Below, one piece after another: positions 4,476 through 20,873 of a stretch of DNA of 28,559 nucleotides. The notes beneath the pieces are model-generated. The model did not search any database, was not told the origin of the DNA, and was given only the letters and a program-made list of their open reading frames with translations. The translations under genes and the position numbers were made by a program. The stretch comes from a virus. Numbering within the stretch: the stretch's first letter is position 1; each line of letters starts with the position of its first letter. Location: positions 1 through 28,559 of IMG/VR virus record IMGVR_UViG_3300032006_000064; one strand, given 5' to 3'.

Positions 4476-6620
4476 TTAGATTACTTTATAAATAGAATTG
4501 TTAGGTATAGTAAGAGTCGCGCCACTTGCAATGGTTACATCACCAACGCTCATAGCATTTTTACCAGTAGTTATGGTATAATTAGCTGAGATAGTACTAT
4601 CTGTTTCGGCTACAACTGTAGCTATTGGAACCCAAGAAAGAGTACCAGAACCGTTTGTTTGTAGATATTCTCCTGCAGAACCAGCTCCGGGTACTCCAGA
4701 CGCTGCACCAATGTCAGCTTTAGAAATTAAGTTACCTGTAGCTGTTACACCACCTTGCCATGAACTACCATTATATACACGTAATTCATTAGCAGAAGTA
4801 TCAAAATAAAGATCTCCAGTATCTAAACTAGAAGATGGTTGAGAACTTGAAATACGGTATCTAGCTGCAAAATCATTTACACTAGTTATATTTGTAGCTA
4901 CTGTATTAACATTAGATATAGATCCACCAACATTATTAATATTAGTAATATTAGTAGCACATGTATCTAAATCAGAAACAATTGCAGTTGTACCAAGAGT
5001 GTTTAAATCTGATACAGCATCAGCTGTTCCTAATCTTCCAATTTCTGTAGCTTTACCTGCGACGGCACCTATATCAGTTGCATCGTTAGCAACTGCTGTT
5101 ACATCACTAGCTATACCAGCTACAGTTGTTACATTAGCAGATACACCAGCAACTGTTGTTACGTTACTAGAGATGCCAGCTACTGTAGTTACATTAGCTG
5201 AAATACCAGCTACTGTAGTTACATTCCCATCAATACCTGCAACTGTAGTAATATTACTAGCATTAGACACAGCTGAGTTGATATTACTAGCATTAGATAC
5301 AGCTGCGTTAATGTTACTAGCATTAGCTACAGCAGCATTAATATTAGAACTGTTATTTGCAGCAGCATTAATATTACTTATATTACTAGCTACGGTTGTA
5401 ACCTCTGTAGCTTTAGGTGTAACCCTATGGAATGCATAAGTATTAAGTGTAGAAGTAGTCTCTACAATCATACCTAAAGTAGAACCATAAGTTGTACTAT
5501 TTTCTAAACCAGTAATGGTAACTGTTGAGTTACCGACAGTGCCGTTAGCAATTGTCGCCACTCCAGATCCATTGGAGGTAAGGTTGCTGCTGAGAGCTTT
5601 AATAGATACAAGAGTTCCAGCCCCGTTATTAACGTCAGGGTTAGCGTTAGGAAAAGATGTTTCATTTGCTATAGGTACGAATCCACCAACATCATCTAAT
5701 AAATCAACAATTCTATCATTAATAGCAGCTGTAGTAGCTATTGTTGTGTCGTTATCTGGAAATGCATCACCATCTTTAATAGTATCTCCACTACTTATAT
5801 TAAAATAACGAGCATCTGCTTCCGTTTCGGTGAAATATCTACCATCTAGAGCACCGTTAGTTAACTCAGTTTCTGTAAAGTATCTGTTATCTAATTGACC
5901 AGCATCTAATTCTGTTTCAGTGTAATATCTATTATCTAATTGACCTGCATCTAACTCAGTTTCAGTATAATATCTACCATCTAAATTATAAGAACCTATT
6001 GAAGTTACGTGACCTTGAGCAGTTATAGTTATATCTTGTAAAACTGTACCGTTACTATTGTTAACTGTACTATTAGCACCAGAAACACTATGATTAAGAG
6101 TGACTTGACCACCAGATTGAGTTTTAGCTAGATCAGTTCCAGCTAAAACATCACCTTCTATTGCTGTATCTATTTGATCAGCTATACGATTTTCAATAGC
6201 TTTCGTTGAAGCTATTCGAGTGTCATCACTTACATGCCATGCTTCAGTACTGATGATTGTTTCATCACCTGTTTGCCATGCACTATCAACTCTATTGTTA
6301 TTTTCTTGAATAACATATAGGTTTTGAGTAAAGTTATCATTCAAATCATTTGAACGTATAGCTGAACCCGGATAAAACGTAGCTTGTAATGCAGTATCAG
6401 CTGTTTCTCGATAAACTCTGACATTACTTGTACCACTAGGAGGTATATTACCACTAGTAAATTTAATTGTAGTTGGAGTATGTAAAGTGTAATGGGTGGT
6501 TACTGTCTTTAAAATACCTCCGACACTAACTTTAATGTCAGTGTCCTTAAGATATGGAAATGTAAATGCGAACGTGTCTTGTGAACCCGTTCCATTATGT
6601 AAATTTTCAGTTGTTGCCAT
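4476..6620 (-). CDS. Tail fibre protein (T7 gp17-like N-terminus)
   Basis: 714 residues. Residues 1-about 145 match the T7 tail-fibre N-terminal domain that attaches the trimer to the tail: TFAFTFPYLKDTDIKVSVGG, then VRVYRETADTALQATFYPGS, AIRSNDLNDNF and a helical end ISTEAWHVSDDTRIASTKAI. The shaft contains four copies of a 15-residue repeat around RYYTETELDAGQLDN (216-273) and about eleven decapeptide repeats of the NINAAVSNAS / NVTTVAGISA type (412-525). Near residues 600-625 is a TGDLYFDTSANELRVYNGSSW segment common in marine phage fibres, and the C-terminus ends with a beta-type TITTGKNAMSVGDVTIASGA. The role is receptor binding. The ATG overlaps the TAA of gp16 (TAATG). The C-terminal half is unlike T7, as expected for a host-range region. 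Confidence 0.92.
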   Translation of the reverse strand: MATTENLHNGTGSQDTFAFTFPYLKDTDIKVSVGGILKTVTTHYTLHTPTTIKFTSGNIPPSGTSNVRVYRETADTALQATFYPGSAIRSNDLNDNFTQNLYVIQENNNRVDSAWQTGDETIISTEAWHVSDDTRIASTKAIENRIADQIDTAIEGDVLAGTDLAKTQSGGQVTLNHSVSGANSTVNNSNGTVLQDITITAQGHVTSIGSYNLDGRYYTETELDAGQLDNRYYTETELDAGQLDNRYFTETELTNGALDGRYFTETEADARYFNISSGDTIKDGDAFPDNDTTIATTAAINDRIVDLLDDVGGFVPIANETSFPNANPDVNNGAGTLVSIKALSSNLTSNGSGVATIANGTVGNSTVTITGLENSTTYGSTLGMIVETTSTLNTYAFHRVTPKATEVTTVASNISNINAAANNSSNINAAVANASNINAAVSNASNINSAVSNASNITTVAGIDGNVTTVAGISANVTTVAGISSNVTTVAGVSANVTTVAGIASDVTAVANDATDIGAVAGKATEIGRLGTADAVSDLNTLGTTAIVSDLDTCATNITNINNVGGSISNVNTVATNITSVNDFAARYRISSSQPSSSLDTGDLYFDTSANELRVYNGSSWQGGVTATGNLISKADIGAASGVPGAGSAGEYLQTNGSGTLSWVPIATVVAETDSTISANYTITTGKNAMSVGDVTIASGATLTIPNNSIYKVI
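5046..5387 (-). repeat. Decapeptide repeat tract in the tail fibre gene
   Basis: About eleven tandem 10-codon units (residues 412-525 of the fibre). The first group follows the pattern NINAAVSNAS and the second NVTTVAGISA, with decay at the end (DVTAVANDAT, DIGAVAGKAT). The periodicity at the DNA level is about 30 bases. Such heptad-free decapeptide arrays probably form a coiled or beta-helical shaft, and copy-number change would alter fibre length. Confidence 0.85.
5802..5975 (-). repeat. Four 15-residue repeats in the tail fibre gene
   Basis: Four consecutive 45-base units encode RYYTETELDAGQLDN (twice almost identical), then RYFTETELTNGALDG and a truncated RYFTETEADA (fibre residues 216-273). 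The R-Y-aromatic-T-E-T-E pattern is a recurrent phage fibre-shaft repeat. Confidence 0.85.
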
Positions 6621-19092: not shown

Positions 19093-20106
19093 CTATGCGG
19101 TTTGGATTTCGATTGCAGCAGCAGGGTTTAATGTACCACAGCCCATAGCAAGACGACCAACGATGATATCACCTTGGTACATTGTCTTTATGTCATTACC
19201 TGTGGTTTGAACCTGAGGACCAATAGCTTCTACACATGCAGCAGCGTCTCTCTGATAGATAAGACCTGCATGGTTAGCGAATGCACCAGCGTAGTCATTA
19301 TTTTCACCGTTCACAGCTGTGATAGTACCAGCTTGGAAAGGTAGGTTGTTAGAACGCTTGATGTCGATACCTGCAATAGATACAAGACCTTCTCCAGAGT
19401 TTAGGTTGCCTTGGCTGTTACCATAATCTCTATTAAGAATGTTTGAATCAACCTGAGAAATCAGTGCGTAGTATTGACGTGGATTTAATACAGCTGATCT
19501 ACCAGACTTAGGTAGATTTTTCTCATCGAGAATAGCAGCTGCTTCAAAGAATGCATCAACTAGTTTCTGTGCATCATACTGGTTACCTGAACCAATTTGA
19601 ATCACGGAACCACCGGGTTCTGGACCGGGAGCTGCAGTGATAGGATGAGCTTCTCTTGCAGCTAGTGCAATTGTACGGAAGACTTTCTTATCATATGCTT
19701 CTGCTAAAGCGTGACCAATCTTAGCAGATATTTCAGATCTAAGTGAGTAGTGAGCAAGAGTCTCGTCTAAATCATACACGAAAGCTGAGCTAACGAGTAG
19801 GTCATCACATACGATGGTCTTCTCTGCTACTGGTGGATCACCTGAACCGAGGATTGGTGTGCCGGGTTCATGGTAATCGGCGGTCATACGACCTGTGAAG
19901 ATGAACTGTAGAGACTTACCGTTCTTTAGTTGACGGGTTTGTACAGTTCCTTTTGCTATCGTTGCTGACTCATAAGCTTTGAATAGCTCACCTGAGAACA
20001 GCTTTAGATAGGTTGCGTATTTAGTATCATAAGCAGTACCTAATGCTAGTGGTGTTGAACTAGTATTATTAACGGTACCGATACTTGATATAACGGTATT
20101 AGCCAT
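19093..20106 (-). CDS. Major capsid protein (T7 gp10-like)
   Basis: 337 residues versus 345 in T7 gp10A. HK97-fold features of the T7 group are visible: N-terminal arm, YLKLFSGELFKAYESATIAK, the strand RQLKNGKSLQFIFTGRMTAD with HEPGTPILG, long helix EISAKIGHALAEAYDKKVFR, and VLNPRQYYALISQ with DYGNSQGNLNSGEGLVSIAG in the C-terminal half. The scaffold gene lies upstream but is separated by five small genes including psbA and hli. No slippery sequence is seen at the end, so a T7-like 10A/10B frameshift is not supported. The ATG has no Shine-Dalgarno sequence but is preceded by an AT-rich leader shared with psbA and by a long structured region. Confidence 0.95.
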   Translation of the reverse strand: MANTVISSIGTVNNTSSTPLALGTAYDTKYATYLKLFSGELFKAYESATIAKGTVQTRQLKNGKSLQFIFTGRMTADYHEPGTPILGSGDPPVAEKTIVCDDLLVSSAFVYDLDETLAHYSLRSEISAKIGHALAEAYDKKVFRTIALAAREAHPITAAPGPEPGGSVIQIGSGNQYDAQKLVDAFFEAAAILDEKNLPKSGRSAVLNPRQYYALISQVDSNILNRDYGNSQGNLNSGEGLVSIAGIDIKRSNNLPFQAGTITAVNGENNDYAGAFANHAGLIYQRDAAACVEAIGPQVQTTGNDIKTMYQGDIIVGRLAMGCGTLNPAAAIEIQTA

Positions 20107-20131
20107 TTATAAAATAAAGTGTTTTAATATA
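20107..20131 (-). promoter_or_regulatory. AT-rich capsid leader shared with psbA
   Basis: Immediately before the capsid ATG the minus strand reads TATATT, AA, AACACTTTA, TTTTA, TAA. The psbA leader at 21950-21930 is the same apart from a five-base TTTTA difference and one or two substitutions. TATATT could serve as a -10 element or the AT tract as an A/U-rich ribosome-entry site in place of a Shine-Dalgarno sequence. Confidence 0.6.
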
Positions 20132-20137
20132 ATCAAC

Positions 20138-20283
20138 TTCTCGAACGTTCAAGAAAATATTCAATTTTAGTTGTGGTCTATCCCACCGTCTAGACGGCTG
20201 AGGGTATCCAAATGTGTTCTCCGTAGATAGTCATTTGGGCCAGAGCCAATTACAGAGAGGTCCGACACTGAGGTGCCTCTCTG
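20138..20283 (-). promoter_or_regulatory. Structured untranslated leader of the capsid gene
   Basis: Four adjacent inverted repeats lie in this non-coding stretch. In transcript order: CAGAGAGG/CCTCTCTG (20283-20253, with an inner CAC/GTG pair and TGAG-type loop), CCAAATG/CATTTGG (20238-20208, with inner TCT/AGA), the perfect palindrome CCGTCTAGACGG (20197-20186), and TTCTTGAACGTTCGAGAA (20155-20138, 9-bp arms with one G-U pair). No open frame or tRNA explains it. It may be an RNase III processing region, a stabilising 5' leader, or a small RNA. Confidence 0.6.
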
Positions 20284-20319
20284 CTGTGGAAGTTAACGTG
20301 TAGTACTTCTATGTGTATG

Positions 20320-20350
20320 AAAAAGGCTAAAGCCATAAAGACTATTAGCC
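20320..20350 (-). terminator. Weak intrinsic terminator after the beta-barrel gene
   Basis: Minus strand GGCTAA (20350-20345), a 14-base loop, TTAGCC (20330-20325) and five T residues (20324-20320). It is 22 bases beyond the stop of the beta-barrel protein gene and ahead of the structured capsid leader. The six-bp stem and large loop make it weak; it may only attenuate. Confidence 0.45.
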
Positions 20351-20371
20351 ATAATTCATTTATCTTTTTCA

Positions 20372-20734
20372 CTAGAAGCTAAACTTAGCTCCAAGCTTTG
20401 TACCATATGTGTTATCAGTATCTTCGTTAAATAAGTTAGCGAATGATACTTCACCATATACACCTAGCTTTTCGGTAGCTGCTACAGAACCGCCAAGCTT
20501 ACCAGTAGTTACTGATTCAGAATCAGAGCCATCAACAGCGTTAATAGTTCTACCGCCTTGGACGTAGTAAGCAAGCTTACCAGCGTCACCTTCAAACCCT
20601 AAGTGAAGATCAGTAGATCTTGACTCGTAGTTAGAAGCTGTATAGTTAGCGTTGGTCTCTACATTTACATAAGGACCAGCCATTGCAGGTGTAGAAACAA
20701 GAGTGGTTGCTAGGACAAGTGCAAGTTTTTTCAT
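20372..20734 (-). CDS. Small secreted outer-membrane beta-barrel-like protein
   Basis: 120 residues. MKKLALVLATTLVSTPAMAG is a textbook signal peptide with AMA|G cleavage at residue 19. The mature part alternates polar and hydrophobic residues in short strands (YVNVETNANYTASNYESRS, DLHLGFEGDAGKLAYYVQGG, KLGGSVAATEKLGVYGEVSF) and ends NTYGTKLGAKFSF, with the C-terminal aromatic Phe typical of BAM-inserted outer-membrane proteins. About six to eight strands could form, so a small barrel or an oligomeric pore is possible. It lies between psbA and the capsid gene. I recall similar porin-like proteins in marine cyanophages; the role is not established. Export and insertion in the host outer membrane during infection are inferred. 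Confidence 0.8.
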   Translation of the reverse strand: MKKLALVLATTLVSTPAMAGPYVNVETNANYTASNYESRSTDLHLGFEGDAGKLAYYVQGGRTINAVDGSDSESVTTGKLGGSVAATEKLGVYGEVSFANLFNEDTDNTYGTKLGAKFSF

Positions 20735-20810: not shown

Positions 20811-20834
20811 CCTAAGCCCCGTTCCATGCTTAGG
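20811..20834 (-). other. Hairpin between psbA and the micro-ORF
   Basis: Minus strand CCTAAGC, 10-base loop, GCTTAGG (seven perfect pairs), not followed by a T tract. A second short hairpin TCCAT/ATGGA with a TTTTC loop lies at 20858-20844, just after the psbA stop. They may protect the psbA 3' end or mark a processing point. Confidence 0.5.
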
Positions 20835-20873
20835 TTTCATGCGTCCATGAAAAATGGATGAACGGACGTGGTG

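Follow-up and report, generated by a model that had tools for sequence, protein, structure and literature searches.

How a T7-like phage comes to produce capsid protein in far greater amounts than any other product is the question raised by the interval directly upstream of that gene in the DNA examined here. The window, that is, the whole stretch of DNA analysed, is a single virus record of 28,559 bases from a marine T7-like cyanophage, and the structural and auxiliary genes examined in it (scaffold, hli, psbA, a small PHROG 417 protein, the major capsid protein and tail genes) are carried by the minus strand, as are all late genes. On this strand the leader runs from 20371 to 20107, between the PHROG 417 gene and the capsid gene, and its RNA presents, from 5' to 3', P1, a UUG, P2 with P3 nested in it, a linker, P4, an A-rich stretch, P5 and the capsid AUG (Table 1). 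About 560 nt upstream of the leader, a Glutamine-II riboswitch (Rfam RF01704, 54.7 bits) was found at 20811-20867 (-), in the gap that separates psbA from the PHROG 417 gene. In P-SSP7 one occupies 20522-20575, again with psbA on one side and the capsid gene on the other, upstream of the capsid leader.

Table 1. Features of the leader and its neighbours in the window, and T-arm units between early genes of isolates
Feature	Position	Strand	Description	Relatives or database match
PHROG 417 gene	20372-20734	-	upstream of leader	
Small ORF	20250-20372	-	40 aa, one hydrophobic stretch, unannotated	frame kept in ~20 distinct relatives
P1, hairpin form	20253-20283	-	stem CAGAGAGG/CCTCTCTG, 15-nt loop CACCTCAGTGTCGGA at 20261-20275	109 distinct homologues; loop near-invariant
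Predicted cleavage point (inferred)	20250/20249	-	downstream RNA would start UUGGC	mature tRNA 3' end (after discriminator base) in tRNA-carrying relatives
P2, 5' strand	20240-20249	-	UUGGCUCUGG	covariation
P3 hairpin	20208-20238	-	CCAAATG...CTACGG...CATTTGG, long form, CUACGG apex	33 different stems in 129 leaders, pairing intact in each
Junction and P2, 3' strand	20196-20207	-	AUA (20205-20207), CCCUCAGCC (20196-20204)	GC..[P3]..AYAAC also in Syn5, P-SCSP1q and pelagiphage groups
P2-P4 linker	20187-20195	-	GUCUAGAC plus one purine	variants GUCAUGAC, GUCGAC, AUGAC, GUCUAUAGAC
P4 hairpin	20173-20186	-	GUGG-GAUAGA-CCAC	stem swapped, loop GANAGA kept
P5 near-palindrome	20138-20155	-	UUCUUGAACGUUCGAGAA, no spacer, one G-U pair	position conserved, sequence variable
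Major capsid protein gene	19093-20106	-	downstream of leader	PHROG 267 major head protein, E=1.4e-78
Early-gene T-arm units	9515-10a 7365, 6711, 6038; P-SSP7 1027; NATL1A-7 23743			
Early-gene T-arm units	S-TIP37 1015, 1468; P-SSP2 8821; S-RIP2 39632; Syn5 2728			

Conserved RNA structures upstream of the capsid gene

The transcribed minus strand of the leader folded at -69.3 kcal/mol (z -4.2), a stability reached by none of 200 shuffled sequences, and the fold of the plus strand was weaker (z -2.2). When the interval was compared by blastn with phage records, only short blocks survived (in P-SSP7, S-RIP2, P-SSP2/3, 9515-10a and others). A scan of IMG/VR for ACGGTGGGAWAGACCAC returned at least 120 loci with an exact match; among the matches listed, the motif lay 29-116 nt upstream of the capsid start in every locus with sufficient downstream DNA, and the encoded capsid proteins were down to 48% identical to that of the window. 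Freshwater and estuarine relatives retained the architecture of the leader with different letters. Scanning genome contigs for a 15-base core yielded chance-like matches alone, in unrelated phyla.

Covariation in P2, P3 and P4 was then evaluated after 31 marine relatives had been aligned with MAFFT, blind to structure. Paired cells amounted to 91%, compared to 77% after shuffling, a percentage favoured by the fact that the structure was proposed after the sequences had been read, which does not favour double changes. The covariation score was 0.405 versus 0.126 in shuffled alignments, none of 500 being as high (because the loci are related, shuffle controls should not be read as probabilities; nor should distinct leaders be counted as independent events), and it did not exceed 0.115 when the 3' partners were slid. 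On 51 distinct rows, with the alignment fitted to a covariance model, the values were 0.478 and 0.142. Compensatory changes, whose absence from relatives would have refuted the first-pass annotation by its own test, were present in the 31 relatives, and they strongly support its suggestion of selection at the RNA level.

The nested P2-P3 hairpin has a UACG loop and an unpaired C facing the AYA. In P3, pairing was preserved through all the stem sequences, the loop being mostly UACG (UACG/UAAG-type in the short forms), and the long forms, that of the window included, retained a CUACGG or CUAAGG apex. Likewise, the P4 stem of relatives was GUGG/CCAC, GUCG/CGAC, GUCUG/CAGAC or UGCAG/CUGCA around a near-invariant GANAGA loop. 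The covariance model found exactly one copy in each of the complete genomes of P-SSP7, 9515-10a, NATL1A-7, S-TIP37, P-SSP2, S-CBP1 and S-RIP2, and P60, outside the training set, gave a weak match (E 0.003) at the right place; the position of the element is constant, once per genome and directly upstream of the capsid gene. P1, P2-P3 and P4 are conserved RNA structures with compensatory changes, located directly upstream of the capsid gene. No family of Rfam 15 matched P1-P4 when the window was searched at E values up to 5, the sole sub-threshold match in the window being a chance-like one to psRNA6 (20106-20145, 15 bits versus a cut-off of 60), and the leaders of Syn5, P-SSP7 and HTVC011P had no gathering-level Rfam match.

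The two long hairpins listed in the first-pass annotation correspond to P1 and P3. The 12-bp palindrome that it also described is present (CCGTCTAGACGG, 20186-20197) and does not hold as a unit: P2 takes its left CC and P4 its last G, and the palindrome is broken or replaced in relatives, freshwater ones included (S-CBP1 CCGTGACGG; GTCGAC; ATGAC). The weak terminator was not supported: a terminator scan found no GC hairpin followed by a U run, and the 8-bp TGAAAAAG/CTTTTTCA repeat sits within a small ORF.

The reported 18-nt near-palindrome (TTCTTGAACGTTCGAGAA, 20138-20155, minus strand) is present and corresponds to P5. At a similar position, about 160 relatives displayed some 40 different perfect or near-perfect palindromes without spacer, with centres such as AACGTT, AGCGCT, AGATCT, ATCGAT, CAGCTG, TACGTA and others, G-U pairs being allowed. 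Self-complementarity was retained as the sequence changed and the centre itself was self-complementary in most relatives, a property that an ordinary hairpin loop does not require. P5 may serve RNA dimerisation or have a role at the DNA level. In some loci (L006, L013, L020, L091, L098 and freshwater loci), GAGAG-like letters just 3' of P5 are complementary to CUCUC-like letters just 5' of the capsid start codon; they could possibly form a further stem, P6, whose strands vary together.

The slot occupied by P1

The P1 loop of the window (CACCTCAGWGTCGGA) is near-invariant and shared with most relatives. As a lead only, we take the loop CACCUCAGUGUCGG (20261-20275, -) to resemble a segment of the 23S rRNA peptidyl-transferase region, CACCUCGAUGUCGG. 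The hairpin is, nevertheless, just one of the occupants of this slot, which in relatives holds a D-armless tRNA-like fold, an intact tRNA (Gly, Trp, Leu, Cys) or a hairpin. ARAGORN detected a tRNA (Cys, Trp, Leu or Gly) in the slot of ten IMG/VR relatives, its 3' end touching the UUG of P2 or overlapping it by one base, and isolate NATL1A-7 has an annotated tRNA-Gly there. P-SSP7 and others exhibited a T-arm, a short acceptor and one further hairpin, but no D arm. No CCA is encoded after the discriminator in the tRNA-like forms, and the acceptor-stem pairing of degenerate forms was just moderately above shuffles. In the window, ARAGORN found no tRNA cloverleaf, and its P1, being of the hairpin form, lacks the T-arm and acceptor strand ending at the predicted cut that were found in 67 of 206 relatives.

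Despite this diversity, the 3' end of P1 was at a fixed distance from P2 in 201 of the 206 distinct leaders. Hairpins (134 leaders) had 11 nt (120) or 12 nt (14) from the loop end to the UUG, and T-arm forms (67 leaders) had 13 nt (45), 14 nt (21) or 12 nt (1) from the T-loop to the UUG, 13 nt being the tRNA value (5 of the T-stem, 7 of the acceptor and 1 discriminator). Among the 5 leaders outside both patterns, two resembled weaker T-arms and two resembled loop variants. The same two types alternate in the Syn5 group. Pairs 2-5 of the hairpin stem were 100% paired in the 109 distinct homologues, with double changes far above shuffles; the stem remained paired for about 9 positions, after which pairing fell off.

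P1 also overlaps the small ORF of Table 1, so the description of the interval as non-coding, given in the first-pass annotation, does not apply to 20250-20372, where a 40-codon frame is conserved. Its GTG overlaps the stop codon of the upstream gene (TAGTG) and its TAA falls at the P1/P2 boundary; the last 11 codons traverse the P1 hairpin, which encodes the C-terminus APQCRTSL. The conserved product (VKKINELWLIVFMALAFFIHIEVLHVNFHSREAPQCRTSL) follows in relatives the pattern VxKxNELWxVVFxLLAFFI..HxNYHRSETPQCRISD, and its best match in PHROG had an E value of just 0.033. P1 encoded the end of the small ORF in about 29 of the 134 hairpin leaders, indicating that part of the conservation of P1 is coding in those leaders.

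Reach of the design and proposed processing of the capsid message

A strict T-arm scan of 2.38 Mb of loci retrieved 96 motifs on the coding strand (68 in capsid leaders and 28 more) versus 1 on the opposite strand. In complete genomes, the extra units were mostly located between early genes; most of them fold as D-armless tRNA-like structures and are followed, no more than a few nt past the predicted cut, by a hairpin that is often perfect, of 6-7 bp (e.g. TTGCTACTCACTGAGAGTAGC). Four further T-arm matches inside large annotated genes were treated as chance. Moreover, contigs L192 (~1060, -) and L377 (122, +) carry a second copy of the P1 hairpin upstream of another gene, of unknown function, with a long hairpin directly 3' of it.

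P2-P3 reaches further. Taken as GC-C[stem UNCG stem]G-AYAAC plus a P2 that supports it, the motif was found in leaders of the group of the SAR11 phage HTVC011P (31 of 46), the P-SCSP1q group (39 of 47) and the Syn5 group (24 of 35); the motif having been defined after one leader per group had been seen, these within-group counts are not independent, and the agreement between groups is. Shuffled leaders gave 0 matches. In T7 the covariance model found nothing, and neither P1 nor P2-P3 was seen in the gene 10 leader. As an RNA family, the P2-P3 motif has no entry in Rfam 15 and is common to phages whose hosts belong to different phyla. No described tRNA-like or capsid-leader RNA of cyanophages was found in the open-access literature, and tRNA-like punctuation in a phage would be, to our knowledge, new.

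We consider it fairly probable that the leader, with the structures described above, acts in cis as a cleavage cassette followed by a 5'-end structure of the capsid mRNA; the cleavage itself, like every step past a conserved RNA structure at tRNA geometry, is what we infer. The long late transcript would be cut after P1. In the tRNA-like relatives the nuclease would probably be host RNase Z, cutting past the discriminator base, and in the hairpin form it would be the same or an equivalent one. The capsid mRNA would then start with UUG and the P2-P3 hairpin, which may shield its 5' end from RNase E-type decay. With less certainty, P2-P3 and P4 would probably also be bound by a ribosomal or phage protein tuning capsid translation, since junction and loop are conserved beyond the need of a plain stabiliser.

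Several observations bear on this proposal. The Syn5 RNA polymerase has two promoters only and transcribes more than 37 kb from one of them (PMC3950665), so that a discrete, abundant capsid mRNA must come from processing or differential stability; these promoters are at 4929 and 44797, neither at the capsid leader. RNase Z makes its cut immediately 3' of the discriminator, and CCA inhibits it (PMC7479834); a paper that appears there as a citation describes a Synechocystis RNase Z. That tRNAs, tRNA-like folds and a hairpin share one slot at a fixed spacing to P2 suggests a cut after P1. Against a tRNA nuclease acting in the window, its P1 is a hairpin and not a tRNA-like fold, and acceptance of the hairpin by such a nuclease is putative. 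In addition, the P2-P3 junction is kept in SAR11 phages without a tRNA-like P1, and P2-P3 cannot therefore serve this cut alone.

More tentatively, and with more doubt than belief, these elements might together represent an undescribed RNA code of marine T7-like phages: tRNA-derived or tRNA-mimicking cassettes, each directly followed by a hairpin, would punctuate very long transcripts, the P2-P3 motif of cyanobacterial and SAR11 phages would mark the capsid message for high, regulated output, and the variable, self-complementary P5 would let leader RNAs pair mutually. The hosts of this phage group are the most abundant marine cyanobacteria. If true, a processing site combined with a stabilising or regulatory leader would answer how the output of capsid protein comes to far exceed all else.

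Translational control alone, in which capsid synthesis is adjusted by a protein bound to P2-P3 and P4 (the capsid protein, some other phage protein or a ribosomal one) and P1 is incidental, seems to us unlikely, though it is compatible with a cut after P1. It would agree with the near-invariant GANAGA loop of P4 and with the P2-P3 loop and junction kept in four phage groups of cyanobacterial and SAR11 hosts, in two of which the capsid proteins are just 32-35% identical to that of the window; however, it leaves unexplained both the swap of tRNA and hairpin at a fixed distance from P2 and the tRNA-like and hairpin units upstream of early genes.

We regard as improbable a site for RNase III in the style of coliphage T7. 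T7-like phages use this enzyme, and P1 offers a GC-rich stem of about 9-10 bp upstream of a structural gene, but the stem is short, with a 15-nt loop, and does not form the long, almost perfect duplex, spanning about two helical turns, of an RNase III site; furthermore, one third of the leaders have instead a tRNA or tRNA-like fold, neither of which RNase III needs. The first-pass annotation had suggested an RNase III processing or stability element: processing or stability is still the best reading, and RNase III is not the likeliest nuclease because tRNAs and tRNA-like folds can take the place of the module at the presumed cut.

An independent promoter, also suggested there, can hardly be maintained. 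A late promoter for the phage RNA polymerase would fit a 17-nt stretch near-invariant in marine relatives, but the element is present in a single copy in each of eight complete isolate genomes, with no repeated consensus upstream of several operons, co-varies as RNA, swaps letters and retains pairing in freshwater relatives, and has no counterpart among the Syn5 promoters. Least credible of all is an attP remnant, left from integration at a tRNA gene: the 3' ends of tRNAs are classic att sites and several of these phages carry an integrase, but the slot is shared, at a fixed P2 spacing, by tRNAs of differing identity and by hairpins that are not tRNAs, T-arm units are found again between other genes and are confined to one strand, and the annotated integrases belong to the early region, a long way from the capsid gene.

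Comparison with known systems

Like the families of Rfam 15, the leader elements are structured cis-regulatory RNAs, although none of those families matches P1-P4. Like the RNase III R sites of phage T7, the leader is a folded intergenic RNA in a T7-like phage, at which a long polycistronic message would be cut to leave a structured end; it differs in that a tRNA, a tRNA-like fold or a short hairpin (conserved 15-nt loop) forms the cassette, and in that the downstream message would keep the structure at its 5' end. In T7 gene 10, the capsid message also begins with a stem-loop, which arises by transcription start at promoter phi10, but P1 and P2-P3 were not seen in its leader. In mitochondria, intergenic tRNAs or tRNA-like folds (t-elements) mark the cuts of transcripts, and here too an intergenic tRNA or tRNA-like fold stands at the predicted cut; the phage leaders differ in belonging to bacteriophages, in their D-armless forms and in the hairpin that lies directly past the predicted cut.
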